Shown here piece after piece: positions 1 to 22,407 of a DNA stretch of 22,688 nucleotides; positions within the stretch are counted from its first letter, which is position 1; each line of letters starts with the position of its first letter. Origin of the DNA: a virus. The position numbers were made by a program, and so were the translations under genes. The notes below the pieces were generated by a model. The model did not search any database. It was not told where the DNA came from and worked only from the letters and a program-made list of their open reading frames with translations. The stretch covers positions 1 to 22,688 of IMG/VR virus record IMGVR_UViG_3300021963_000699; one strand, given 5' to 3'.

Positions 1-931
1 CTCCAACTAATTCTGAATTTGGATATATTACTTCATCTGAAGTTGATTCAATTCCCGCCCCAAATTCAAGATATGTCGTATTGTTTGCAGTGACATTTAC
101 AACAAATTTACGAGAAGTTTTTAAACTTTTAATTAATTTTGGTACTTCTGCAGAATATTGTACATAGTCGTTATTAGTAAAATCCGTATTTTCAGTTTCA
201 GTAAATACTAAATCTTGAGCTAAATAATCGACTTCATACCATTTATTGTTATCACTGTCTCTTACATCAATTATATCAACTACATTGTTTTCGGATAATG
301 ATATTTTATAAAATTGTACTGCTGCACCAACAGTAAATGATTCGGTTGTAATTTTTCCCGCAATGACTTTAACTGATTTTTTAAGTAAGAAAAATTGTGG
401 AATACCGTAATCGTCTCTTGAATAAACCGTTACTTCTCTTGGTGAAAATTTACTGTCTAATGAAAAATCCACAGGATCTGTAGTAATAAAACTTACTCCG
501 CTTTCATTTGAAACTTCCATATACTCTCTTATTTTAAGAGCATAATTGTTATCAGGAATATAATTGTTACTTGAATCCTTTGTAGAAGGAATTATTTGAT
601 ATAAATCAATATTTGTAGTTGCAGATTTAGTAGGTTTGGTTTTATAACCAAGATAATTTGCTAATGCTAATACATTTTTACGTTCTTCAGCATATGGCAT
701 TAAACTTTCTTTGAATTGATAATCGGTATAATATGAAAGAACATCCCCAATATAAGATGCCATTTCAATAAACATCATACCTGGTGAAGCATCACTAAAA
801 TCTTTGTAAGTTCTTGGAAAATATGTTTTTGAATACTCAATTAAACTAGCTTTAAAAGATGAAAAATCTCTATTAAGATATTTGATATCTTTTTTAGAAC
901 TATTAAATGACTTTTGTATAATGTCTGCCAT
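1..931 (-). CDS. gp6: Baseplate wedge protein, gp6/J-like (5' part, runs off window)
   Basis: About 310 codons are visible; the start is the ATG at 931-929 and the stop lies outside the window. The translation opens MADIIQKSFNSSKKDIKYLN and continues with RDFSSFKASLIEYSKTYFP, SDASPGMMFIEMASYIGDVL and a run ending ALANYLGYKTKP. This is the N-terminal signature of T4 gp6 / baseplate J-like wedge proteins. In that family the protein forms the ring of the baseplate wedge that holds the tail in its pre-contraction state. It starts 2 nt after the gp25-like stop, so the two are probably co-transcribed and translationally coupled. Family assignment is from sequence resemblance; the C-terminal half cannot be judged. 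Confidence 0.88.
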   Translation of the reverse strand, partial: MADIIQKSFNSSKKDIKYLNRDFSSFKASLIEYSKTYFPRTYKDFSDASPGMMFIEMASYIGDVLSYYTDYQFKESLMPYAEERKNVLALANYLGYKTKPTKSATTNIDLYQIIPSTKDSSNNYIPDNNYALKIREYMEVSNESGVSFITTDPVDFSLDSKFSPREVTVYSRDDYGIPQFFLLKKSVKVIAGKITTESFTVGAAVQFYKISLSENNVVDIIDVRDSDNNKWYEVDYLAQDLVFTETENTDFTNNDYVQYSAEVPKLIKSLKTSRKFVVNVTANNTTYLEFGAGIESTSDEVIYPNSELVG

Positions 932-933
932 AG

Positions 934-1329
934 TTAAATATTATTTTGATTAACTGTCAAATTCAATGTATCTATTTGATTATTAACCGTAAATTGTATT
1001 TTTATATATAATATATAACTATCTGTTAGTTGATTTTTTTCTTGATTTGATAATCCAATATCTATTTTATTTACAATTACACCAGGTACATAATTATTGA
1101 TTTCATCAGTTATAATTTGTTTAATTATGTCAGGAGAATCTTGTAAATTTTGTTCAAATAAATATTCTTGTAATCCAGAACCAAAGTTTGGATTCATTCT
1201 TCGTTCGCCTTTTTTAGTTCTCAATAAATTAGTAATATTGGCTTTTACTTGAGTCAAAGTGTCATAACTTTGTTCAAAATAGCCATTTCTACCAATTTGA
1301 ATCGGTAATGTTAGTCCTATTGGATTCAT
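934..1329 (-). CDS. gp25: Baseplate wedge protein gp25-like
   Basis: A 131-aa protein of the usual gp25 size. The core from about residue 25 to 95 has the family pattern: QVKANITNLLRTKKGERRMNP, then GSGLQEYLFE, then an I-x-x-x-I-x-x-E-I-N-N-Y-V-P-G-V segment, ending in beta strands. Gp25 proteins (also related to the type VI secretion baseplate) sit in the inner baseplate wedge and nucleate sheath assembly. The gene lies between an unknown 159-aa gene and gp6, separated by 1 and 4 nt, which is the usual baseplate neighbourhood. There is no strong Shine-Dalgarno sequence, suggesting coupled translation from the upstream gene. Confidence 0.92.
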   Translation of the reverse strand: MNPIGLTLPIQIGRNGYFEQSYDTLTQVKANITNLLRTKKGERRMNPNFGSGLQEYLFEQNLQDSPDIIKQIITDEINNYVPGVIVNKIDIGLSNQEKNQLTDSYILYIKIQFTVNNQIDTLNLTVNQNNI

Positions 1330-1330
1330 A

Positions 1331-1810
1331 TTATCCCATTGATACCATACCAGAACCTATTGTACCATTTTGTTTCTTTTTATCTACAGCCTTCATTAAA
1401 CTTCTAAAATCTCTTTTAAGAACATCCATTACTTTACCTTGTTCTTCAGTTACAGGAGCAACTGGTTCTGGTTCTGTAACTTCTGCAGATTCATTTATTT
1501 GCATTCCAGAAAATGCTTGAGATTTAAAGCTAGAATCTAGACCTGCCATAGAATCTTCTCTTGGTATTTTAACGACAGTTTGATTCAAAATCTCATTCAA
1601 AACAGGATTACTTGAATATTTTTTAATTTCTTTAGGTTTTTGTACCGATTCTTTAACTACATTCTTTGTAGGAGTTTGAGAATCAATTATAGGAACTTGT
1701 TTGCCGGATAATACTTCAGTAAGTACTTTTGGTATTAAAATAGGTAAAGTTTTATCCAATTCTTCTTTAATTACGGCCCTAATTATCTCTTTTAATTCAT
1801 TACTTTTCAT
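1331..1810 (-). CDS. Unknown baseplate-operon protein, 159 aa
   Basis: Not recognised. The N-terminus (about residues 1-35) is a predicted amphipathic helix rich in Glu, Lys and Ile (ELKEIIRAVIKEELDKTLP). The middle is polar, low-complexity and Pro/Glu-rich (PEPVAPVTEEQ near residue 115). The C-terminus is a basic helix ending in a Gly/Met tail. Its place between the Pro/Gly-rich protein and gp25, in the same orientation with a 1-nt gap to gp25, argues for a structural or chaperone role in tail assembly. That role is inferred from context only. The ATG is preceded by an AT-rich TATATAGTATATG stretch with no Shine-Dalgarno sequence. Confidence 0.75.
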   Translation of the reverse strand: MKSNELKEIIRAVIKEELDKTLPILIPKVLTEVLSGKQVPIIDSQTPTKNVVKESVQKPKEIKKYSSNPVLNEILNQTVVKIPREDSMAGLDSSFKSQAFSGMQINESAEVTEPEPVAPVTEEQGKVMDVLKRDFRSLMKAVDKKKQNGTIGSGMVSMG

Positions 1811-1824
1811 ATACTATATAATTA

Positions 1825-2613
1825 TCATTGAATTTTTGGGATTGTATTATTTATTTTGTTATTTATTTCTTCCGCAGATGGTGGTTTTGGAATTTTTACA
1901 GTTTTTATTCGTTTACCCATACCAGATTTAATCTTTTTTGCTAATGATACACCTCCAATAGCACCTACAGCTCCACCTATACCGGCACCTAAATTTCCTC
2001 CTAATTTATTTCCTATTCCTGCACCTAATCCACCTCCAATGCCACCTCCTACCGCACCAGTTACACCTCCTGATATCGCACCCCCTATAGTTCCGCCTAT
2101 TGCACCTCCAGTTGCTCCACTCATTGCACCTCCAATACCCGCACCTATACCAGAAGAAACCGTTTTTGCAGCAGATGTTATTCCACTTACAGCTTTATTT
2201 AATCCACTTTTAGCACTTGATATCGCTCCTGACAATCTATCAACAGATTTTCCTGTTACTGAACCAGGACTAAAATGTTTTGGATTGAAATTTGGAGCAG
2301 ATAATTTAGGTATATTGGTACTTGGCAATTGTGGAGGAGTTGGTAAAGGAGGTATACTTGGTGTATTTAATCCAGATAAATTTGGTAAACTAGGAGATGG
2401 TAACGAAGGAACACTAGGTATACTAGGTAAATTAGGTACTGAAGGTACAGATGGAGTTGGTATATTAGGAATATTTGGAATTGATGGTTTAGATATATTT
2501 TTAGCAATATCTGCTTTTTTTGAAGTAACAAATTTCAATCCATTAGATGCTTCTGTTGGTGGTCCAGGTAAAGCAGGATCGATATCTTTAAATGATGTAA
2601 GTTTATTTATCAT
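1825..2613 (-). CDS. Pro-repeat / glycine-zipper protein, 262 aa
   Basis: Three blocks are visible. Residues 1-40 are ordinary sequence with a DPALPGPPTEAS motif. Residues about 42-112 are a run of short Pro-x-x-Pro repeats (PNIPNIPTPSVPSVPNLP and variants). Residues about 130-230 are almost entirely Gly, Ala, Ile and Ser in GxxxG spacing (for example GAGIGGAMSGATGGAIGG), resembling glycine-zipper membrane segments. The C-terminus is basic (KRIKTVKIPKPP). The start overlaps the spike-like gene by 4 nt (ATGA), so it is translated with it. A stiff Pro stalk followed by a hydrophobic zipper would suit a protein ejected with the tail tip that inserts into a membrane, but no function is known to me. 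The large plus-strand frame here is a shadow of the repeats. Confidence 0.8.
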   Translation of the reverse strand: MINKLTSFKDIDPALPGPPTEASNGLKFVTSKKADIAKNISKPSIPNIPNIPTPSVPSVPNLPSIPSVPSLPSPSLPNLSGLNTPSIPPLPTPPQLPSTNIPKLSAPNFNPKHFSPGSVTGKSVDRLSGAISSAKSGLNKAVSGITSAAKTVSSGIGAGIGGAMSGATGGAIGGTIGGAISGGVTGAVGGGIGGGLGAGIGNKLGGNLGAGIGGAVGAIGGVSLAKKIKSGMGKRIKTVKIPKPPSAEEINNKINNTIPKIQ

Positions 2614-4271
2614 ACTTCTTCAAATTGTATTTCAACCGGACCTTCTCTTCTTAATTTTCCTTTAAATTCCCCAGGCAATCCTTCACCTGACACAATATTG
2701 ACAGAAACTGGTTCGGTTCCATTTTTCATTCCATTTGGCATCACACCATCTACACCTGGAGCATATCCTCCACCGGTAACAAATACTCTTCGACTCATCA
2801 ATTTATCTAAATTGTCTCTTAAAAACTTCAATTGTTTATCTTGTACAGATTCTTGAGTTTTATCTGGGTTTGGACCAGGAGAATTATTATGAACGTGATT
2901 ATACCAATGTACATGGTCTAGTAACCAATTACATAAATCATATAACCAATCTACTGTTGTTTGTCCCAATAATACAGGTTCATTTGTCTGTCCATATTGA
3001 CCCAAATATATTGCAGGACTATTTAATACTGTTTTATTGTTTGTAGTTAACACAATTTGATCATGAGCATCAACTGTATATTCACTATCAGTAACTACTC
3101 CATATCTTTCTTTGGAAAAATGTAATGATTCTCCAAATCGACTACTTAAAATTAATCTATCGGTATTAATTACTATTTGGTCTCCTTTTAAATTTTCAAT
3201 ATCAAAATTAAAAGATGTTGAACCAATAGGAGAAAATAATGGTTGTTCTTCTTTACCTTGTTGAAACAAAGATTTATAACATGTTGTTTTCCATTTTGAT
3301 TTAGTTAATCCAGATGTAATATAAATTGAACTACCATCATGATTAATATCTTCTTCTATTAATCCGCCAACATTTTTTTGAGAATTAATAATTGATGGAA
3401 TATCTGGCAATTTAGATATACCTGCAATTGGTTTATCTAATGATAATTTTCTTTGTCTATTTCTTATCAATATCATAGGATTTCCGCAACCTTCTGTAGG
3501 TTTATTTACGGTTGGGTCTCCTTTATAATCCGGATAAAATCCTTTATCATTTTCTCTTATACTATCATAAGCAGAAAAACGAATTGATTGTCCGTGACGA
3601 CTTTCAAAAACAGTATCACCTTCATATCTTCTTAATTTTCTTATTTTTGAATTAGCAAGAAAATATGAACCTAGAACACCTTTTACTTGATTATTTGCAA
3701 TTTTTTTATGAGCATTTAATGATGTAGGCCCTTCAACTGGTTCGCTTTTTATAGAATCTTCGCCAACTAAATCAGTATTACCATCATTATTTCCATAAAA
3801 CTTTTCAAGTCTAAAATTAGATTCTTGATTAACAAATCCATTTAAATTTAATTTTCTAGTATAAAATAATTTATCTAAATACTTTACTACAATTACTACT
3901 TCATTTAACAATGGATATTCAACTATTCCAGTAGATTCTATTGGAAATGCCCAAGAGAGTTTTTCCTTTTCAATTCCTTGTTGAGAAAAACAAAGTCTTA
4001 CTTTACAAGCACCAATATAAGTATAATCAATATCTGTATTTAAAGGTTGTTCACCTTTATAATTTTGAGGAATATTTCTAGAATCTACAAAATGACGTTT
4101 ATTTACTATTTCTGGGTGTTTTTCATCTAAAATGACATCTAAAACTATAGCTGGTTCTAATTCATAAAATTCATTTACAGATGGTGAAGAGTTACCACTA
4201 CTAACTGATAACCCTAAATTATTCAATTGTCCAAAACTAACCGGAGAAGATTTTATATTAAAATATGGCAT
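2610..4271 (-). CDS. Baseplate central spike / gp5-like hub protein, lysozyme-less
   Basis: A 553-aa protein. The N-terminal third (about 30-160) carries an OB-fold-like stretch with ELEPAIVLDVILDEKHPEI, YIGACKVRLCF and PLLNEVVIVV segments. The middle contains SRHGQSIRFSA and NPMILIRNRQR, followed by strand-rich sequence with DQIVLTTNNKTVLNSPAIY, as in gp5-type spike beta-helices. Near residue 450 there is a His-rich segment (LLDHVHWYNHVHNN) common in phage hub and spike proteins. I see no lysozyme domain between the OB fold and the helix, unlike T4 gp5. Its likely role is the central needle or hub that pierces the outer membrane. It heads the local baseplate operon (spike, Pro/Gly protein, 159 aa, gp25, gp6). 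Confidence 0.72.
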   Translation of the reverse strand: MPYFNIKSSPVSFGQLNNLGLSVSSGNSSPSVNEFYELEPAIVLDVILDEKHPEIVNKRHFVDSRNIPQNYKGEQPLNTDIDYTYIGACKVRLCFSQQGIEKEKLSWAFPIESTGIVEYPLLNEVVIVVKYLDKLFYTRKLNLNGFVNQESNFRLEKFYGNNDGNTDLVGEDSIKSEPVEGPTSLNAHKKIANNQVKGVLGSYFLANSKIRKLRRYEGDTVFESRHGQSIRFSAYDSIRENDKGFYPDYKGDPTVNKPTEGCGNPMILIRNRQRKLSLDKPIAGISKLPDIPSIINSQKNVGGLIEEDINHDGSSIYITSGLTKSKWKTTCYKSLFQQGKEEQPLFSPIGSTSFNFDIENLKGDQIVINTDRLILSSRFGESLHFSKERYGVVTDSEYTVDAHDQIVLTTNNKTVLNSPAIYLGQYGQTNEPVLLGQTTVDWLYDLCNWLLDHVHWYNHVHNNSPGPNPDKTQESVQDKQLKFLRDNLDKLMSRRVFVTGGGYAPGVDGVMPNGMKNGTEPVSVNIVSGEGLPGEFKGKLRREGPVEIQFEEV

Positions 4272-6080: not shown

Positions 6081-7109
6081 TTAAAAACTAAAATGGTTTG
6101 GTTTATATCCATTATCAACTATTACTTCTTTAATCACTTCTTTTTCTACAGGAATCTCTTTAATTACTTCTTTTTCTATATGAATAGGAACTTCTTTGAT
6201 AATTTCTTTAATTATTTGTCCGTCTTTAACTTCTTGTGTCGCTTCTTCTTTTGCTTGTTCAACTATTTCTTCAACAGTTGGTTCATTTTTTGGTTCTTCT
6301 TTTTTTATAATATCTTTGACGTAAATAACATCTCCTAAAGTAGTATTATAAGCTAATAATAAACAAATTGCAAGAGGATCAAATACTGATATCAAACAAA
6401 TAATAAACCATTTTACTACTTTATTAATATCTACACCAAATTCATCAGCAACAAATTTAAATGTCTGTAAATCTTTTTTACCACTTCCTTGTAGTTTAAT
6501 ATCAGATATCTGTTTATCTAATTTTTGCATTTCATCAATACTTAATTGTATCTTATTATTCTCGTTTTCTATATCTTTTTCACTTTTATCAATAAATTCT
6601 TTTGTTGATTGTTGAATCTGAGCCAATTGAATTGGATTACGACTAATAATAACATTAGTCATACTTTCATTCAATCGTTCTTCTTGTGAAGTTCTTAATT
6701 TTGTTATATTTTCGATTCTTTTCTTGGAATTATTGATTTTATCATCAAACATTTTCTTTTGGTCCTGTATATAAACAATCTTTTCTTCACTCAATTTATT
6801 TTCAATTGCAGACTGTTGATATGCAGATGTTAAGTAACCAAAGATGCCAAGTGATGTGATAAACATCAATGCTAAAACTGCTAAAATTAGATATGTTTTT
6901 AACAAAATTTGAGATTTTTTCCAATATCTATATAAAAATGTAGTTGCCACTAATTTTCCAATTTCAAGTGAACTTGCCATAATCATAGATGCAATTGCAG
7001 ATCCACTGAATAACATTCCTATACCAATTATACTAAAGAATGCAGCACAACTCGCTATAAATAACGATGATAATCCTACAATTCTTTCAAAAGTTAATGG
7101 TGTTTTCAT
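6081..7109 (-). CDS. Multi-pass membrane protein with coiled coil and IKEV repeats, 342 aa
   Basis: The N-terminus has about three hydrophobic segments (about 10-35, 37-58 and 70-92, the last being LILAVLALMFITSLGIFGYL). A long charged coiled coil follows (about 100-205), then a fourth membrane segment (about 228-252, FIICLISVFDPLAICLLLAY). The C-terminal tail (about 260-335) is a Glu/Lys-rich repeat of the pattern K-E-V-I-K-E-I/V-P-V/I. I know no biochemical function; comparable architectures occur in other large T4-like phages. The topology suggests an inner-membrane protein with a large cytoplasmic or periplasmic coiled coil. An ACTATATATT box sits 6 nt upstream of the ATG, so a transcript could be nearly leaderless. 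Confidence 0.75.
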   Translation of the reverse strand: MKTPLTFERIVGLSSLFIASCAAFFSIIGIGMLFSGSAIASMIMASSLEIGKLVATTFLYRYWKKSQILLKTYLILAVLALMFITSLGIFGYLTSAYQQSAIENKLSEEKIVYIQDQKKMFDDKINNSKKRIENITKLRTSQEERLNESMTNVIISRNPIQLAQIQQSTKEFIDKSEKDIENENNKIQLSIDEMQKLDKQISDIKLQGSGKKDLQTFKFVADEFGVDINKVVKWFIICLISVFDPLAICLLLAYNTTLGDVIYVKDIIKKEEPKNEPTVEEIVEQAKEEATQEVKDGQIIKEIIKEVPIHIEKEVIKEIPVEKEVIKEVIVDNGYKPNHFSF

Positions 7110-7114
7110 ATTCT

Positions 7115-7124
7115 AATATATAGT
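7115..7124 (-). promoter_or_regulatory. Candidate phage promoter box (ACTATATATT)
   Basis: On the minus strand ACTATATATT lies just upstream of the 342-aa gene start. The same ACTATATA core recurs before purM and the 45-aa gene. It resembles a -10 or late-promoter box, but AT-rich DNA makes such matches common. Confidence 0.25.
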
Positions 7125-7799: not shown

Positions 7800-8723
7800 T
7801 TATTCAATAGGATTTGGAGGTAATAAATGATTTTTTGTATATTCACTTATGTATCTATCACTAAATCGAATTCCTGCATATAACTCATAATCTTCAATCG
7901 TTCTTACGTTTCCAAAACTATAAATTGAGTCTATTAACTTTTCATAACCATCCATTCCAAATATTCTTTTGTGTCTATTAGTAGATTCTACATCTAATTT
8001 ACTCCAATCATTTCCTTCAATAATATGATCATCCCAATGTTTTGGTCTTTTTTCTCTTGTATAATAATGCCATGCAATTATTTTATTTGGATGATATAAA
8101 TCATAACCATGTGTATAAGCCCTAACAGAAATATTTGTTTCCTCACCATAGAAATAATAATAAGGATCGTGTTGTACAACTTTACTAAATTCACCGTCTG
8201 TAAATGCAAAATGACCACTGTAAAACCTTGATGGAATCGGATTTTCAAATTGTTGATTTAGTGGTTCTGGAATAAAAAACATTGGTCCTTCATCCATAAA
8301 CTTTTCAAGATTCATTTTCCACACTTCTTGCAAATATTCTTCTTTATCAGGATCATAATGAGGTAAATATGCAGTAATTAATGGTTTGTCACTTCCTAAT
8401 TCTCTACATTGATTATACATGTTTATTAACTCTTCATCCCAGTTTTGTATAAATCTATGATGTGAATCTAATTGTAATGTATATTCTTCGCCTTTATATT
8501 TTTGTTGTATTAAATTCCTAGCCCAACATACACCTTTACTTTCAACATAAGGAATATCAATATATTCAACCAAATGTTTTATTGGTTCAATACATTCGTT
8601 ATCATCATGTTGCCATGCAATTACAATTCTCAATGATTCTGGATTTTTAGCTTTATTAACCAAATCCAAAACTGTTGGAATTAATTCAGGATCTCTATAA
8701 CTCGCAATTTGAACAAATATCAT
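7800..8723 (-). CDS. Glycosyltransferase, GlcNAc-transferase family (PF11397-like)
   Basis: A 307-aa protein matching the family that includes Skp1 GlcNAc transferase. It starts MIFVQIASYRDPELIPTVLD, followed by KAKNPESLRIVIAWQHDD, GVCWARN (64-70) and the metal-binding LDSHHRF (85-91, D-S-H at 86-88). Later come YSGHFAFTDGEF, YYYFYGEETNISVR and a WHYYTREKRPKHW segment. Such enzymes transfer a sugar, usually GlcNAc, from a UDP donor onto a protein. It starts 7 nt after the Ser/Thr-rich fibre-like gene ends, so virion fibre glycosylation is a reasonable inference. Acceptor and sugar are not determined by sequence. Confidence 0.87.
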   Translation of the reverse strand: MIFVQIASYRDPELIPTVLDLVNKAKNPESLRIVIAWQHDDNECIEPIKHLVEYIDIPYVESKGVCWARNLIQQKYKGEEYTLQLDSHHRFIQNWDEELINMYNQCRELGSDKPLITAYLPHYDPDKEEYLQEVWKMNLEKFMDEGPMFFIPEPLNQQFENPIPSRFYSGHFAFTDGEFSKVVQHDPYYYFYGEETNISVRAYTHGYDLYHPNKIIAWHYYTREKRPKHWDDHIIEGNDWSKLDVESTNRHKRIFGMDGYEKLIDSIYSFGNVRTIEDYELYAGIRFSDRYISEYTKNHLLPPNPIE

Positions 8724-13119: not shown

Positions 13120-13502
13120 TGGTGGACATGAAGGGAGTCGAACCCTTGTCTTTAAAACACTATCATAATCAGACTACGTGTGTATACATTTTTTAGTTGT
13201 TAAGAACAATTATATTAAATGTCAAAACTAATTGTTCTAAAGATTTATAAAATACTCAATCAACAACATAAATCAAACTGTTGACTTAGCCTGATAGTTT
13301 ACACCCAATATTATTATCAGACATCATAATATTGAATGCGCAGCCTTAGGCTGCTAATGCTACTGCATCACGGGAAGTGAAGTTGTAGCTGATTACATTA
13401 TCTTCAGCAGTTAATGTTTTAATAGATGTTTATAAGAGGCCAACTATCATCCTCTACACGCCTAACTAGTCAATCGTCTTAAATCGAAACCAGTACATGC
13501 CC
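13120..13502 (-). ncRNA. ssrA: Transfer-messenger RNA (tmRNA)
   Basis: About 383 nt on the minus strand. The 5' end GGGCATG pairs with CATGTCC near the 3' end, followed by A and an encoded CCA. The T-arm AGGG-TTCGACT-CCCT and the conserved 5' block TACTGGTTTCGATTTAAGAC are both present. The tag frame starts at the GCT after TTAACT and reads AEDNVISYNFTSRDAVALAA then TAA. The stop sits in the loop of a GCAGCC/GGCTGC hairpin, as in bacterial tmRNAs. tmRNA releases stalled ribosomes and tags the nascent chain for proteolysis; the ALAA end is the typical degron. It lies 8 nt after the 83-aa gene inside a tRNA array. The partner SmpB is not in this window. Confidence 0.96.
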
Positions 13503-13957: not shown

Positions 13958-14167
13958 TTAAATCTTTTCTACAATAATATTGTCTGTTACTAATTTACCA
14001 AGACAAACTCTTGTATTACATACCATACATATCAAATTATTTGTAATAACACTAATTATAGTTCCTTCAAATATTCCTAACTCTTGAAGTCTTTGGTTAA
14101 CAATATTAACTTGAACTATCCGTCCTTTTTCTCCAGCTTTTAATTCAGTTAATTTGTATGTCTTCAT
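13958..14167 (-). CDS. feoA: FeoA-like protein inside the tRNA array
   Basis: A 69-aa protein starting MKTYKLTELKAGEKGRIVQV. It fits the FeoA SH3-like domain: L-x-x-L-x-x-G-x-x-G-x-I-x-x-I/V, then RLQELGIFEGTIISVI and a final NTRVCLGKLVTDNIIVE where FeoA has G-x-R-I-A-L-G-R-x-x-A-x-x-I-x-V. In bacteria FeoA is a small cytoplasmic partner of the ferrous-iron transporter FeoB. Two Cys (47 and 55-type positions in M-V-C and R-V-C) are atypical additions. A longer frame begins inside tRNA-Pro, but that extension is tRNA sequence, so ATG 14167 is preferred. It sits between tRNA-Ala and tRNA-Pro on the same strand. No FeoB is in the window. Confidence 0.75.
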   Translation of the reverse strand: MKTYKLTELKAGEKGRIVQVNIVNQRLQELGIFEGTIISVITNNLICMVCNTRVCLGKLVTDNIIVEKI

Positions 14168-15223: not shown

Positions 15224-16591
15224 TTATTTACATTTAAATATATTTTTAATTCGTTCTGTTATTGTTTTTTGTCTATCTTCTTTTTCTGGAATATATTTGT
15301 TAATATTATTTATCAACTTGATTTCTCCAATTACTGGTTCAGGTGGAACTGGACCTACTGGAGTTGGATTACCATAACAATTACTTTGTGGCCACCATCC
15401 ACCTAAATTCTTAAGCATATTAGCAGGTGATACATTTAAATTGTTTTCTTGAATTACAATATTTTTAAATACAGAAGATAGGTTAGGTAAATCTCTATCC
15501 ATACTATAACCTAAAAATATTCCATCCCAAGGTGCATATTTGCCAGGTTTCCAATTCCATGTTCCTTTACCAGTTGTTATTACATTATTATTTCTTACTA
15601 ATAAATTATGATGATATGCATAGTTTATTGCCCACCATTCACTTCCATATTGTCTTACATAATTTTGTGCGCTTAATCTTATAAAACATGGAACACTTAA
15701 CGCACTATTTTCTTCTACTACTGTATCAATATTTGTTCCTGTATCAACATAATAACACATTCCTTCAAATCCATCGAAATTATTTTTTCTAATTATTGCA
15801 CCTTTTGTATTAGCAACACTAATACCTGCCAATGGAGAAAATTGGGTTTTACCAGCGTCACCTCTAAATGTACATTGTTCAACAATACAACCAGTTGCAA
15901 ATACTTTGCCTGCTAAATGTCCACCTACTTGTACATGTACAATTTGTTCAGTATCATGTTCTGGATATCTATTGTTTCTTCCTGGTGAATGAAAATCACA
16001 TCGTCTTACAGTAGTTCCTTTTACACCATCTTTAGAATTTTTAGACAATAATGATATAATAATAAATGACGTTGCATTATCTTTACCCACATTAAATCCT
16101 TTAAATTCACAATCTTCATATAGTGTATTACTGCCAAATGTAGTACAACCTGCGGTTGTTAATTCATTACCTTTAGCTTCATTTATTTCATTATAATTAC
16201 CGTCAAATGTTATACCTTTAAATATTATATTCTTACAATCAACACTACCATCACCACCAGGTCCAACTGCTTGAACCATAATCAATTGGTTTCCATTCAC
16301 AGCTAAATCTCTTCTACCAGAAAGATGTTTAGATAATTTTAATATCGTTTTTCCTTTACCTTTACCAATTATTTTAACGCCACTTTCATTTTGTTCTGGT
16401 TTCCATCCCCATAATATTCCACTTTTCAAAACTTTTTCAGGATCATTTGAATCTATATTATTACCACCTATGTAATAGGTTCCTTCACTAAGTTCACATA
16501 TATTGTTCTCCATTATACATTTATTAATTGCATATGCAGAATTTATTGTTTCGTCGTTTGGTTTTGCTCCATATTGTTCTGGTTTACTCAT
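15224..16591 (-). CDS. Right-handed beta-helix protein (pectate-lyase-like fold)
   Basis: A 455-aa protein. The start MSKPEQYGAKPNDETINSAY followed by ELSEGTYYIGG matches the opening of the pectate_lyase_3 / tailspike fold (YGA-P-D...A-I...GTYYI). Coils follow with repeated I-x-I/N-N-x-F strands (for example DCKNIIFKGITFDGNYNEI, GAIIRKNNFDGFEG, VIQENNLNVSP). The C-terminus has a Pro-rich linker (PTPVGPVPPEPV, about 410) and a basic tail. There is no signal peptide. Such proteins bind or cleave polysaccharides, often as tailspikes; no catalytic set can be assigned. A good ribosome-binding site (AAGGAAA) and a private terminator make it a self-contained unit. Confidence 0.82.
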   Translation of the reverse strand: MSKPEQYGAKPNDETINSAYAINKCIMENNICELSEGTYYIGGNNIDSNDPEKVLKSGILWGWKPEQNESGVKIIGKGKGKTILKLSKHLSGRRDLAVNGNQLIMVQAVGPGGDGSVDCKNIIFKGITFDGNYNEINEAKGNELTTAGCTTFGSNTLYEDCEFKGFNVGKDNATSFIIISLLSKNSKDGVKGTTVRRCDFHSPGRNNRYPEHDTEQIVHVQVGGHLAGKVFATGCIVEQCTFRGDAGKTQFSPLAGISVANTKGAIIRKNNFDGFEGMCYYVDTGTNIDTVVEENSALSVPCFIRLSAQNYVRQYGSEWWAINYAYHHNLLVRNNNVITTGKGTWNWKPGKYAPWDGIFLGYSMDRDLPNLSSVFKNIVIQENNLNVSPANMLKNLGGWWPQSNCYGNPTPVGPVPPEPVIGEIKLINNINKYIPEKEDRQKTITERIKNIFKCK

Positions 16592-16912: not shown

Positions 16913-17623
16913 TTAAAATGATAGTCTTAGACCACCAGAATAAACTACATCACCACTAAATTCACGGGTTGCCCAGTTATACTTAGCAGCGCTGAAGTCA
17001 TTGTCATACCATCCAACACTAGCAAATGGAGTCAACACACCAAATGAAAATTCAAATGGACGAGTCAATGTTGCTTTAGCGTTAACAGCGGTATAATCAC
17101 TACTTGCACCATATACCTTACCATATTCTACAGCAGGTGTAATGACAAAACCAAGTGGCAATTTCTGAGCACGTTCAATACCTACGAATGCACCCTTTTG
17201 ATCTAGGTCAATGTCAAATGCACCACGTACATATGGAGTTGCCAACTTATTTGGTAGAGCCAACTTCACACCAAATTCAGTGCTGTTTGGAATACCAAAG
17301 CTACCAGCTTGGTGACGAGTAACAGTAGCATCGGCACGGGCAGAAAATACATCCTTCCATACATCTACTTCCTTGCCAGCACCCAATGTCCAATGTGATT
17401 GATCCAAATCACCATTAGCCAATAGAGTTCCACCCAAATATACATCCGCATACTTTAGGGACTTTACTGCACCAACACCAACGAATGGTGATCCTTCGGA
17501 ACGAGCAACACCATTTACGATGTATTGGTTATTGTAACCAGCTTCCACTGATAGGCTTGAATTATCTCCAGCAGTTACAGTTAAAGCGGTCAATAGTGAC
17601 ACTAATACTAATACTTTCTTCAT
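16913..17623 (-). CDS. Outer-membrane beta-barrel (porin-like) protein
   Basis: A 236-aa protein. MKKVLVLVSLLTALTVTAGD is a typical Sec signal peptide (cleavage after about residue 18). Alternating aromatic and hydrophobic strands follow (SVEAGYNNQYIVNGV, DVYLGGTLLANG, HWTLGAGKEV, FEFSFGVLTPFASVGWYD), ending in GGLRLSF. The terminal Phe is the barrel-assembly signal of Gram-negative outer-membrane proteins. About 10-12 strands could fit. A ribosome-binding site (AAAGGA) precedes the ATG. The gene is visibly richer in G and C than its neighbours, suggesting recent capture from a bacterium. In infection it could alter the host surface, for example permeability or receptor masking. That role is inference. 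Confidence 0.85.
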   Translation of the reverse strand: MKKVLVLVSLLTALTVTAGDNSSLSVEAGYNNQYIVNGVARSEGSPFVGVGAVKSLKYADVYLGGTLLANGDLDQSHWTLGAGKEVDVWKDVFSARADATVTRHQAGSFGIPNSTEFGVKLALPNKLATPYVRGAFDIDLDQKGAFVGIERAQKLPLGFVITPAVEYGKVYGASSDYTAVNAKATLTRPFEFSFGVLTPFASVGWYDNDFSAAKYNWATREFSGDVVYSGGLRLSF

Positions 17624-17818
17624 ATTTTACTATCCTTTATTTATGTTTGTTTTTGTTAACAAATAAACTTCACTCAAAGTCTATTTACCTTAATCATCAT
17701 ATACCGATCTTCAAGAATATCAATTTATTATATAATGATTCTTGAAAATAACTATTACGTCGATTTTATAAAAATTAAATTATTTTCCCAACAATTTTAT
17801 CTATATATTATAAAAATT

Positions 17819-18292
17819 ATGCCATACGAATATAATGCAAAAGTTACAGAAGTCGTTGACGGAGATACAGTTGTAATCGATATTGACCTAGGTTTTGATG
17901 TTGTTTTTGTTAATCAAAAAGTGAGACTTTTAGGTGTAGATACTCCAGAAAGTCGCACGTCAGATAAAACAGAAAAAGTATTTGGATTAGCAAGCAAAGA
18001 CTACGCAAAAAAATTTATTGAATCATGTAAAGATAAAAATGTGATTATTCGTACTCATATTAGTGATGACGTAGACAGTAATGGAAGAGAAAAATTTGGA
18101 CGTTTATTAGGAGAAATTATAAATCCAGATACCAAAAAAATTCTCAACGAAGAATTAATTAATAATGGTTACGCCGTTCGTTATATGGGTGAAAATAAAG
18201 ATAAAGTAAAAGACCAACATCTAAAAAACAGAAAACGCCTTATTGATGAAGGCGTTGTGAAAATGTCTTATAAAGACGCTGGTATACTATAA
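17819..18292 (+). CDS. Thermonuclease (staphylococcal nuclease-like)
   Basis: A 157-aa protein and the only plus-strand gene. Motifs are VVDGDTVVI (12-20, Asp16), RLLGVDTPE (36-44 with Arg36, Asp41, Thr42, Glu44) and EKFGR (91-95, Arg95). These correspond to staphylococcal nuclease Asp21, Arg35, Asp40, Thr41, Glu43 and Arg87, so the full catalytic set is present. It hydrolyses DNA and RNA with Ca2+. There is no signal peptide from this ATG. A longer in-frame start at 17735 adds hydrophobic AT-rich sequence but no cleavage site, so 17819 is preferred. It is convergent with the tyrosinase gene. It could degrade host nucleic acid to feed replication. Confidence 0.93.
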   Translation: MPYEYNAKVTEVVDGDTVVIDIDLGFDVVFVNQKVRLLGVDTPESRTSDKTEKVFGLASKDYAKKFIESCKDKNVIIRTHISDDVDSNGREKFGRLLGEIINPDTKKILNEELINNGYAVRYMGENKDKVKDQHLKNRKRLIDEGVVKMSYKDAGIL

Positions 18293-18299
18293 AATAGTA

Positions 18300-19817
18300 T
18301 TATTCAATTATTGTAAACTTCAAATTCCTAATTGCGAGTTTGAAGTTTTTGTCTTTAATTTTATTCAAAATTAATTTAACCGTCTTTGGATAACCCACAA
18401 ATGTAGTATTCAAATCATTTGTCAATGATTGCTTTCCTGTTCCTATTGTAATTAAAAATTCATGAGATATAGATGTACCTTTATCTGGTTGTCTACCATC
18501 TAAAATATTAACACGACCAATATAATTTCCATTAACATATGCACTTATTTTAAATTTATCGGCATATGAAATTGGACCTGTTTCAATAGTTAATATTGAC
18601 AATTTTGATTTTTGATTTATTAATTCTTTGATTTTATCATTTTCAGGAATATCTAATACAAGTCCATCTGATGTTAATGTTCCTGTTACAGGTATAGTTA
18701 CGGACTTTGGAATATTTGTATTAATACTAGAAACTAATTTTATTGGTTCATCAGAAGGTGGTTGATAAGTTACATTAGTCATTTTAGTAACAATGTCTTT
18801 TACAGTTACTTTTACAGGACTACCATCTATATCAGTATATGTATATTCTTGTTGACCCCAAGGACCATTTACATCTGGCATTTCATTCTTATATAACGAC
18901 CAAATACGGTCAATATTACCATGATGCATAAAGAAAATAGGGTCATTTGCAGCATATCTTAATGTTCCCATCGTTCTATTACCGCCATAACGAGTTCCTA
19001 CCCAATCATGACCATTATTGTGTGGACCTTGTTCTAATAAACCTTGTCCAGTATTTCTATCTGTTACTGACTTACCACCAAAAATTTCAAACGGTGCTTT
19101 CAAAATAGCATTAATATAATCACTACTCATATACCACTTGGTTTCAACGATATGTTGTTTTGAATCTGCACTCACTTCATTGCTTGGGTCCATAGTAGGT
19201 TCCGCAATAGTTGGCTTTCTATTACCGTCATACAGTGCTAAATTATCAAAATCAAGGTTATCCGCACTTACCATATCCTCTTGCGTCAAATCATACCCAA
19301 ATAATGGACTTGCCAATCCAGCTTGTTTACGAATCTTAGTGTTCGGCATTTCTTGATGATTACTCCAATCCCAATATGGATAAGCAAAAGCAACACCATT
19401 CCATCCAAAATTAGTTTTTAAAACATTATCCAAAATTCTTTCCAAAAAATAAATATAACCACGGTGCCATGGTAAAAAGTGCCAACTCCAATGAACTTGG
19501 ACCATAGGAACACCTGAATCAGTGCAGTGATATGCATGTAATTTTGCATAATTTTCCCATTGAATTGGACTGTTTAGTGGTATATTTCTACGCATATATC
19601 CAACTGCACGACACAAATTCTTCAATTCGTCATCACTCAAATCATAAAAACTTTTACGAATTCTTTGTGGTTCATTTGTAAATTTAAATCTTTTACCACC
19701 AACCGCAGGACCACAAGTAGGGTCATTTACAGGTTGTTTAGATGCTGCGTTTAAATTTAATCCAATTGTACTAGTAAGTAAACCAGACTTTAAAAAAGTT
19801 CTTCTTGTCGTATCCAT
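18300..19817 (-). CDS. Tat-exported tyrosinase / polyphenol oxidase
   Basis: A 505-aa type 3 copper protein. The N-terminus has a twin-arginine signal (TTRRTFLKSG) predicting folded export across the inner membrane. CuA ligands are His94 (with Cys98 at the thioether position of plant-type enzymes), His109 and His118 in VHWSWHFLPWHRG. CuB ligands are His266 and His270 in GPHNNGHDWVG and His299 in FFMHHGNIDRIW. The C-terminal part (about 345-505) resembles the beta-rich shielding domain of plant-type polyphenol oxidases. It oxidises phenols to quinones with O2. All six His are intact, so it is probably active. It starts 1 nt after the 57-aa gene's stop. The host or virion role is unknown. Confidence 0.94.
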   Translation of the reverse strand: MDTTRRTFLKSGLLTSTIGLNLNAASKQPVNDPTCGPAVGGKRFKFTNEPQRIRKSFYDLSDDELKNLCRAVGYMRRNIPLNSPIQWENYAKLHAYHCTDSGVPMVQVHWSWHFLPWHRGYIYFLERILDNVLKTNFGWNGVAFAYPYWDWSNHQEMPNTKIRKQAGLASPLFGYDLTQEDMVSADNLDFDNLALYDGNRKPTIAEPTMDPSNEVSADSKQHIVETKWYMSSDYINAILKAPFEIFGGKSVTDRNTGQGLLEQGPHNNGHDWVGTRYGGNRTMGTLRYAANDPIFFMHHGNIDRIWSLYKNEMPDVNGPWGQQEYTYTDIDGSPVKVTVKDIVTKMTNVTYQPPSDEPIKLVSSINTNIPKSVTIPVTGTLTSDGLVLDIPENDKIKELINQKSKLSILTIETGPISYADKFKISAYVNGNYIGRVNILDGRQPDKGTSISHEFLITIGTGKQSLTNDLNTTFVGYPKTVKLILNKIKDKNFKLAIRNLKFTIIE

Positions 19818-19818
19818 A

Positions 19819-19992
19819 TTATTTTATTTTGTAAGTTACCCAACCAGTTCGGTGTTTTTCAATCCAGTCTACCAACGCTTTTTCAAAACCAATGTCTTTT
19901 CCAGCTTTTTCACTTTCAATCCATTTGTGTTTCATTATTTCATTCTTCATGTCAATAAACTTGGAATAAATACACTTCTTGGTCATAGACAT
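19819..19992 (-). CDS. Small conserved-looking protein upstream of tyrosinase, 57 aa
   Basis: From ATG 19992 the product starts MSMTKKCIYSKF and contains KHKWIESEKAGKDIGFEKAL then DWIEKHRTGWVTYKI. The Trp-Ile-Glu-Ser-Glu-Lys-Ala-Gly pattern recalls small bacterial proteins of unknown function. A longer frame would start within the purM terminator hairpin and is unlikely; ATG 19986 is an alternative. Its stop lies 1 nt before the tyrosinase start, so the two are a transcriptional pair, but a functional tie is unproven. Confidence 0.65.
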   Translation of the reverse strand: MSMTKKCIYSKFIDMKNEIMKHKWIESEKAGKDIGFEKALVDWIEKHRTGWVTYKIK

Positions 19993-19999
19993 ATATAGT

Positions 20000-20024
20000 A
20001 AAAAACCCGCCATAAAAGGCGGGT
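20000..20024 (-). terminator. Terminator after purM
   Basis: On the minus strand ACCCGCC pairs with GGCGGGT across TTTTAT, followed by TTTTTTA. It ends the second tRNA-purM transcript, 6 nt after the purM stop. Confidence 0.9.
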
Positions 20025-20029
20025 CAACT

Positions 20030-21052
20030 TTAAATAATTTTTACTTCACATTTTCCACTCTCTACATGTCCAATAATATAAGACTTATAATTTAAACTTT
20101 TACTTTCTTTTAAAAATTTATCCGCATACTTCTTATTCATTATAAATACCATACCAATACCCATATTAAATACATGATACATTTCTTCATCACTAACCTT
20201 ACCACATTTTTGTATAAATTCAAATATTGGTAATACATCCCAACTCTTCTTATCAATTATTACATTTAAATCTTTTGGTAATACTCTGGGAATATTATCA
20301 TAAAATCCACCACCAGTAATATGCGCAATTCCATTTACATACTTCTTAGTCTTGTGTACTAAAGATAAATAACTCATGTGCGGTGTCAATAATTCATCTC
20401 CCAAAACATTGTCAATTTCTTTAACATAGTCTTCTACACCGTATCGCATCTTATCAAACAATATCTTTCTAGCTAAACTATATCCATTAGTATGTAATCC
20501 ACTTGATTCAACTCCAATTACAACATCTCCTTTTGAAATATTTTCACCACTAATCATTTCATCTTTTTCTACTACACCAACAATTGTACCACTCACATCA
20601 TACTCACCCTTCTTATAAAACCCAGGCATTTGTGCTGTTTCTCCACCAATTAATGTACAATAGTTTATTCTACATCCTTTGATAAATCCTTCAATAATAG
20701 ATTCAAATACTTTTGGTTCCAACTTACCCAACCCAATATAATCCAAAAAGAATAATGGTTCCGCACCCAATACAGCAATATCATTCACACAATGATTAAC
20801 CAAATCAAATCCAATAGTATTGTGTTTATTAAACTCAAACGCAATCTTTAACTTGGTTCCAACACCGTCAACACTAGATACCAATATGGGATTTTTATAT
20901 TTCTTAATATCTAAAGCAAAAAGACCGCCAAAACCTCCAACCTTGCCTAACACTTCTTTTCTGTTAGTGGATGAAAGTAATTGCGGTAATTTACTCTTAA
21001 CTTTGTTGCCTAATTCAATGTCTACACCAGCCTTTTGATATTGTTTACTCAT
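20030..21052 (-). CDS. purM: Phosphoribosylformylglycinamidine cyclo-ligase (AIR synthetase)
   Basis: A 340-aa protein from ATG 21052 (MSKQYQKAGVDIELGNKVKS). It catalyses ATP-dependent closure of FGAM to AIR, step five of purine synthesis. Family motifs are intact: SVDGVGTKLKIA (about 60-71), GFDLVNHCVNDI (81-92), IGGETAQMPG (135-144), SSGLHTNGYSLARKI and HITGGGFYDNIPRVLP. The length is standard. A longer frame reads into tRNA-Cys and is rejected. It is downstream of the second tRNA array on the same strand with a short gap, so it is probably co-transcribed. Phages carry such genes to raise purine supply for replication. Confidence 0.96.
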   Translation of the reverse strand: MSKQYQKAGVDIELGNKVKSKLPQLLSSTNRKEVLGKVGGFGGLFALDIKKYKNPILVSSVDGVGTKLKIAFEFNKHNTIGFDLVNHCVNDIAVLGAEPLFFLDYIGLGKLEPKVFESIIEGFIKGCRINYCTLIGGETAQMPGFYKKGEYDVSGTIVGVVEKDEMISGENISKGDVVIGVESSGLHTNGYSLARKILFDKMRYGVEDYVKEIDNVLGDELLTPHMSYLSLVHKTKKYVNGIAHITGGGFYDNIPRVLPKDLNVIIDKKSWDVLPIFEFIQKCGKVSDEEMYHVFNMGIGMVFIMNKKYADKFLKESKSLNYKSYIIGHVESGKCEVKII

Positions 21053-21056
21053 AACG

Positions 21057-21066
21057 TATATATAGT
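21057..21066 (-). promoter_or_regulatory. Candidate promoter box before purM (ACTATATATA)
   Basis: On the minus strand ACTATATATA lies 4 nt before the purM ATG, like the box before the 342-aa gene. This close spacing would give a leaderless transcript; chance in AT-rich DNA is a real alternative. Confidence 0.22.
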
Positions 21067-22104: not shown

Positions 22105-22407
22105 TTATTTCAATTTTGCTTCCAGATCAGGCCAAGTTCCTGATGGATATGATACAAACATAACTGCATTTCCACTAAATGGTTGGAACATCACATATCT
22201 ACCATCATTTCCTATAAAATCTCCAGTTTTTCTTGATACATATGTAGCTTGTTTATCCGTGGGTTTTCTATAAAAATTAAAACTACCTTTTTCACCTGAA
22301 TTAGTTACACCTCTTGTTTGTATGTGGTAATCATACATTGATTTTGCAATTTTGCTAGAAAACGGTAATTCTTTGGCTTCAAACAATAAATCTTTTAATT
22401 TAATCAT
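22105..22407 (-). CDS. Unknown phage protein, 100 aa
   Basis: The product starts MIKLKDLLFEAKELPFSSKI, an opening often seen in small proteins of large T4-like phages. It continues with a basic polar middle (SGEKGSFNFYRKPTDKQATY) and GDFIGNDGRYVMFQPFSGNA, AVMFVSYPSGTWPDLEAKLK. It is a small alpha/beta protein of unknown role. It stands alone between tRNAs, with a TATAAATA box 12 nt before the ATG. The overlapping plus-strand frames read through tRNA genes and are not real. Confidence 0.72.
   Translation of the reverse strand: MIKLKDLLFEAKELPFSSKIAKSMYDYHIQTRGVTNSGEKGSFNFYRKPTDKQATYVSRKTGDFIGNDGRYVMFQPFSGNAVMFVSYPSGTWPDLEAKLK

Follow-up and report, generated by a model that had tools for sequence, protein, structure and literature searches.

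The DNA analysed here, called the window throughout, is a complete IMG/VR viral record of 22,688 bases. It belongs to a large phage with a contractile tail and carries an intact tyrosinase gene. We estimate a probability of roughly 0.65 that the encoded protein is a functional, Tat-exported and latent enzyme of plant PPO-like type, all three properties taken jointly. Type-3 copper oxidases have not been described as part of phage biology; in the present case such a gene forms a conserved, phage-specific clade, has an intact catalytic site and is exchanged between phage backbones. Should the enzyme prove active, it would be, as far as our searches show, the first phenol oxidase exported by a phage, and would stand for a chemical strategy of envelope modification or for a viral contribution to the turnover of phenolic carbon.

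Table 1 Features of the window (in the last row also of related contigs)
Feature	Position	Strand	Evidence or remark
Baseplate module (gp6-like wedge, gp25-like wedge, hub-like protein)	2..4271	-	PF04965; phrog_219/10646
GlcNAc-type glycosyltransferase	7800-8723	-	PF11397, E=6e-69
tmRNA gene	13120-13502	-	complete; tag AEDNVISYNFTSRDAVALAA
FeoA-domain protein	13961-14167	-	PF04023, 40.6 bits, cut-off 23
455-aa protein	15224-16591	-	beta-helix/pectate-lyase-like by eye
Exported outer-membrane beta-barrel-like protein, distantly TorF/Gcw_chp-like	16913..17623	-	close to tyrosinase
Staphylococcal-nuclease-like protein (likely start ~17822)	17735..18292	+	PF00565 E=2.9e-13; phrog_452
Tyrosinase (type-3 copper oxidase)	18300..19817	-	intact ORF; PF00264; AlphaFold2 model
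C-terminal beta-sandwich, putative latency/shielding domain (aa ~366-505)	18303..18722	-	Foldseek
Catalytic di-copper domain (aa ~40-345)	18783..19700	-	PF00264 at 18885-19562; confident helical core in model
CuB motif E262-x3-H266-N267-x2-H270-D271 ... H298-H299	18921..19034	-	invariant where covered
CuA motif H94-x3-C98-x10-H109-x8-H118	19464..19538	-	invariant in alignment of 14 distinct phage homologues
Putative twin-arginine signal (MDTTRRTFLKSGLLTSTIGLNLNA)	19746..19817	-	RR motif conserved in phage homologues
55-aa ORF, short DUF4032-like C-terminal motif	19819..19986	-	PF13224 24.8 bits, cut-off 23.8
Candidate phage promoter element ACTATATAT	19991..19999	-	upstream of tyrosinase unit
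Intrinsic terminator-like hairpin	20004..20025	-	separates purM from tyrosinase unit
purM-like phage auxiliary gene	20030..21052	-	phrog_1207 E=1.5e-91; upstream of tyrosinase
MIKLKDLL.EA-like leader ORFs	window 22105-22407; G007 27344-28278, 31872-32756; G008 38785-39639; L009 3502-3981		

Phage location and distribution of the gene

The tyrosinase ORF encodes 505 aa, with its ATG at 19817, its stop at 18300 and no internal stops. The first-pass annotation had called an intact tyrosinase at exactly these coordinates, and PF00264 matched residues 86-311 well above the cut-off (E=7.6e-36, 124.9 bits; cut-off 22.6). Five further phage homologues scored 120-123 bits with the same model. The baseplate module marks the contig as that of a contractile-tailed phage. 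Furthermore, phoH, the staphylococcal-nuclease-like gene, a phage purM, 14 tRNAs and a tmRNA are located on it, and the 14 tRNAs plus the tmRNA also pass Rfam. The tmRNA gene adjoins the phage tRNAs, and the FeoA-domain protein lies inside the tRNA cluster.

Homologues of the tyrosinase were detected by three scans in 19 other IMG/VR records. The 20 records including the window contain 14 distinct sequences, which are mutually 42-86% identical. The contigs carrying them have a GC content of 31-51% and reach 297 kb. The longest one (G218) has the baseplate block of the window, and 14 of its genes have homologues there. Phage hallmarks were found on several carriers, namely tail sheath genes (G014 and G015), a baseplate gene (G015) and a tape measure gene (G218), besides DNA polymerase and DnaB-type helicase in G006 and ribonucleotide reductase in G217.

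A bacterial gene on a misassembled contig, the case named by the first-pass annotation as refuting a phage gene, would be compatible with one related fragment in a bacterial MAG. In this Candidatus Fonsibacter MAG, positions 125-751 of contig L010 (JALRAW010000008.1) match window 19599-20225 over 627 bp at 99.2% identity, covering purM, the terminator, the small ORF and the start of the tyrosinase. However, it is this contig that is chimeric, since the phage stretch is joined to an argC-like one. Misassembly of the window is contradicted by the 19 further viral records with their differing contexts, by this second assembly, and by the 297-kb contig with the same baseplate genes and the hallmark genes on several others; we consider it hardly credible.

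The 50,697 phage records of INPHARED gave no match to the window protein, to a distant phage member or to Streptomyces and Nitrosospira queries; phoH was found by the same method in 3,347 of them. Neither the PHROG families and the BFVD predicted viral folds nor the literature searched contained a phage tyrosinase, in agreement with the earlier statement that no role in phages is established. The gene apparently represents an undescribed, clade-forming phage family of a known enzyme type. It was not found in 48 related contigs, the closest of which break off in front of the locus, at the tRNA cluster, so that their lack of tyrosinase is uninformative. The only one large enough, a more distant relative of 365 kb (G246), has no tyrosinase, which suggests that the gene is not universal.

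Catalytic site, fold and probable export

The roles of the residues were assigned by comparison with the tyrosinase of Verrucomicrobium spinosum (PMC10526336) and with apple PPOs (PMC5562730). H94, H109 and H118 were assigned as CuA ligands, and H266, H270 and H299 as CuB ligands. H298 corresponds to the "seventh" histidine, C98 (HA1+4) to the thioether cysteine, E262 to the waterkeeper, and N267 (HB1+1) and D271 to the activity controllers. All these residues are identical in every phage homologue covering the positions; the six copper-binding histidines and the thioether cysteine recognized in the first reading are not only present in the window but invariant in the family. The corresponding residues in V. 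spinosum are His80/86/95, His258/262/284, Cys84, Glu254 and Asn259/263 (PMC10526336). The combination of Glu with Asn at HB1+1 has been linked to monophenolase activity, by a rule that is not strict (PMC5562730). Judged from the residues, E262 and N267 in all members covering them favour monophenolase activity, i.e. a tyrosinase sensu stricto. For Asp as controller residue, as at position 271, we know of no direct precedent, and this is counted against our preferred reading.

An AlphaFold2 model based on an alignment of 20 sequences reached a pTM of 0.82 and a mean pLDDT of 76, with the signal peptide and a few loops being unreliable. It replaced a first, poor model from a thin alignment; even that one had yielded a match to 6elt, which is the C-terminal domain of MdPPO1 after self-cleavage. 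The best solved folds were those of full-length latent plant PPOs (E about 6e-20 to 2e-17): aurone synthase (4z11-4z14; E=6e-20), apple MdPPO1 (6els) and tomato PPO (6hqi/6hqj). Like them, the phage protein consists of a core and a C-terminal beta-sandwich of the latency type, and its thioether cysteine lies four residues after HA1. Unlike them, it carries a putative bacterial-type RR signal in place of a transit peptide and, by alignment, Leu instead of Phe at the plant gatekeeper position, and the identity is only ~20%. PF00264 was the sole Pfam match of the window protein, and PPO1_DWL and PPO1_KFDV were absent from it and from five homologues even at E<=10. Hence, the shielding domain proposed earlier is supported by the fold, not by Pfam. 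Among the BFVD predicted viral folds only matches of beta-sandwich type were obtained, and no viral protein clearly had the same catalytic fold.

The next solved fold after the plant PPOs, and the closest bacterial one, was the tyrosinase of Hahella sp. CCB MM4 (8b74; TM 0.52/0.60, E=1.2e-14), which is the product of a cellular gene and ~21% identical. The V. spinosum enzyme (8bbq; PMC10526336) resembles the phage protein in its Tat signal (putative in the phage protein), its core with a C-terminal extension (inhibitory in V. spinosum), the lack of a caddie, the Glu waterkeeper, Asn at HB1+1 and Leu at the gatekeeper position. It differs in its second controller, Asn instead of Asp, and in the Cys-x-His arrangement of the thioether (Cys84-His86). 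The distance of 2 residues there compares with 11 from C98 to H109, which places the thioether loop of the phage protein nearer to the plant type. The sequence match to the V. spinosum enzyme was also weaker than that to plant PPOs (E=1.9e-13 vs 1.4e-26). For the plant enzymes we take the spacing from this cysteine to HA2 to be 17, in the numbering of the sweet potato enzyme, compared with 11 in the phage protein. With the MelC2/MelC1 system of Streptomyces only the PF00264 core is common: MelC2 lacks a C-terminal domain and depends on a caddie, the MelC2 equivalog NF047834 gave 50.7 bits against a cut-off of 450, and no caddie-like gene was noticed by eye in the listed neighbourhoods of the phage tyrosinases.

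Regarding export, the twin-arginine signal postulated in the first-pass annotation stood the comparison as a motif. TTRRTFLKSG is present in the window protein, and an RR motif was found in all aligned homologues. The Tat profiles PF10518 and TIGR01409 (Pfam, NCBIfam) did not bear it out, as they remained below cut-off in three homologues and did not match the window protein. From its sequence, the phage tyrosinase is probably exported by the Tat pathway. Neither TatC nor an HMA copper chaperone was found on 16 tyrosinase-bearing records searched, most of them fragments; therefore both must come from the host if they are not encoded on unsequenced parts.

Evolution of the phage tyrosinases

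In the tree, the phage tyrosinases form one clade with a support of 100/100 on a long branch relative to the available cellular sequences, with the caveat that long branches join in this tree and that the cellular sequences come from some phyla only. A GTDB scan with window-derived peptides yielded cellular tyrosinases of at most 28% identity, the chimeric MAG contig excepted. Profile searches for a cellular donor covered about 800 genomes, belonging to the same phyla as Fonsibacter, Streptomyces or the MAG L020, and gave just partial, weak matches. A close bacterial sister, which according to the first-pass annotation would show the donor, was not found in the sampled phyla, and the phage clade stands apart from the cellular tyrosinases covered.

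Exchange of the gene between phages is indicated by two observations. Judged by five of their backbone proteins, G007 and G013 are mutually closest or nearly so. In the tyrosinase tree, however, G013 groups with G014 (100/99), and G007 joins the group of the window (100/97). In addition, the window and G006 have tyrosinases of 83% identity and only one other gene in common.

The gene is under purifying selection in phage genomes. Simple pairwise omega values (NG86) from four pairs, some of them with high dS, ranged from 0.08 to 0.21 (window/L009 0.08, G013/G014 0.09, window/G006 0.13, fourth pair 0.21).

The catalytic part of the gene had been described as richer in G and C than the C-terminal part, and this was confirmed for the window (35.2% vs 26.7% GC; GC3 0.21 vs 0.13). 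The recent capture at which the contrast was said to hint was rejected as unsupported. GC3 follows the respective contig, with ~0.65 in the phage of 51% GC and 0.12-0.37 in AT-rich phages. The contrast between the domains is small in G013 (35.5 vs 34.9%) and reversed in G015, and the clade is deep. Together with the swaps between phage lineages, the tracking of GC3 supports the view that the tyrosinase is an old resident of phages.

Gene neighbourhood and possible benefit

Directly upstream of the tyrosinase lies the 55-aa ORF, a pairing kept in three phages (window, G013 and L009), and both are probably co-transcribed. The candidate promoter element ACTATATAT precedes this unit and was also found before purM (21058-21066) and before the ORF at 6081-7109 (7116-7124). 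The pattern ACTATATAT-N4-ATG occurred 3 times compared with 0.03 expected. With the element in front of these other genes too, the tyrosinase unit looks like ordinary phage transcription. The staphylococcal-nuclease-like gene is convergent with it. Like purM and phoH on the same contig, the tyrosinase would belong to the accessory cargo of the phage, being an enzyme of host type behind a phage-style promoter element; unlike these two, it is without any phage precedent in PHROG, INPHARED or BFVD.

During infection, the phage would make the tyrosinase from its own promoter, and the Tat system of the host would export it to the periplasm or beyond the infected cell. The enzyme would take its two coppers from the host, a supply of copper and O2 being assumed. 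With the C-terminal beta-sandwich in place, the active site would be shielded. After displacement or cleavage of this domain, phenols and possibly exposed tyrosines could be oxidized with O2 to o-quinones, which would react with amines, thiols and other phenols.

The latent zymogen architecture and the promoter-like element of its own would also suit an enzyme with delayed activation, whose quinones damage membranes in the periplasm late in infection or use up O2 and thereby time lysis. No holin, endolysin or spanin genes were seen beside the tyrosinase, though, and phages of this size are expected to carry dedicated lysis genes. We regard such an aid to lysis or killing as improbable.

Our first choice for the benefit, made tentatively and at clearly less than even odds, is that the enzyme remodels or cross-links the infected cell's envelope. 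For example, inactivation of receptors could prevent superinfection or keep progeny from re-adsorbing to debris. This choice rests solely on the predicted export and on the neighbourhood, where genes of exported or outer-membrane proteins occur (Gcw_chp-type barrel, DUF2490 barrel, Ig-domain proteins). The barrel gene is present once per lineage. In 6 of the 7 lineages having it, the 297-kb contig included, its distance from the tyrosinase is about 0.7-5 kb; in the exception, G006, it is 27 kb. As these lineages amount to about two independent synteny blocks, the association is suggestive only. The Pfam cut-off for the barrel family was passed by the G008 copy only. Directly upstream of the tyrosinase and on the same strand, two exported Ig-type proteins are encoded in G008 and a DUF2490 barrel in G007. 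The outer-membrane barrels imply a Gram-negative host. The wider proposal that jumbo-type phages keep a deeply diverged tyrosinase as a secreted "quinone-tanning" enzyme altering the host envelope, so as to exclude superinfection or inactivate receptors, a strategy undescribed before, is rather unlikely to be right.

With a probability only slightly below that of envelope remodelling, we consider it possible that the enzyme serves as an auxiliary function in detoxification or nutrition. Free phenolics, humic or lignin-derived, would be oxidized and polymerized around the infected cell, so that inhibitors of host or virion enzymes are removed. Mobility of the gene between unrelated phage backbones is expected for ecological cargo, and a piece of the phage is fused into the MAG of Fonsibacter, which we take to be a freshwater SAR11 genus; the carrier viruses are probably from fresh water. 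For wetlands, a removal of phenolics by bacterial tyrosinases has been proposed (PMC9454253). On the other hand, such a benefit would be diffuse and slow relative to the lytic cycle, and no linked genes for the degradation of aromatics were seen in the listed neighbourhoods.

Tyrosinases usually yield melanin as their end product. A melanin-like or quinone-tanned coat could protect infected cells or the virions released from them against UV or proteases. The support for this reading is family precedent alone; the enzyme has no head-packaging leader and no consistent association with structural genes. Its probability is as low as that of the lysis aid, and envelope remodelling remains preferred.

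Some further observations concern the host and the accessory genes. A protein with a PEP-CTERM sorting signal (TIGR02595/PF07589 over cut-off) is encoded by G012 at 51369-51713 (L031), and the same protein occurs in L004. It suggests an exosortase-bearing host. Together, the PEP-CTERM and exported Ig-domain proteins (G008/G012) would be compatible with Verrucomicrobiota among others. The glycosyltransferase of the window lies beside tail-fibre-like genes and has a 51% homologue in the 297-kb phage. For the 455-aa protein no Pfam or PHROG match was obtained. An N-terminal MIKLKDLL.EA-like leader is common to unrelated ORFs of the window, G007, G008 and L009. By its resemblance to the capsid-targeting sequences of T4, these ORFs are candidates for head-packaged, co-injected proteins.
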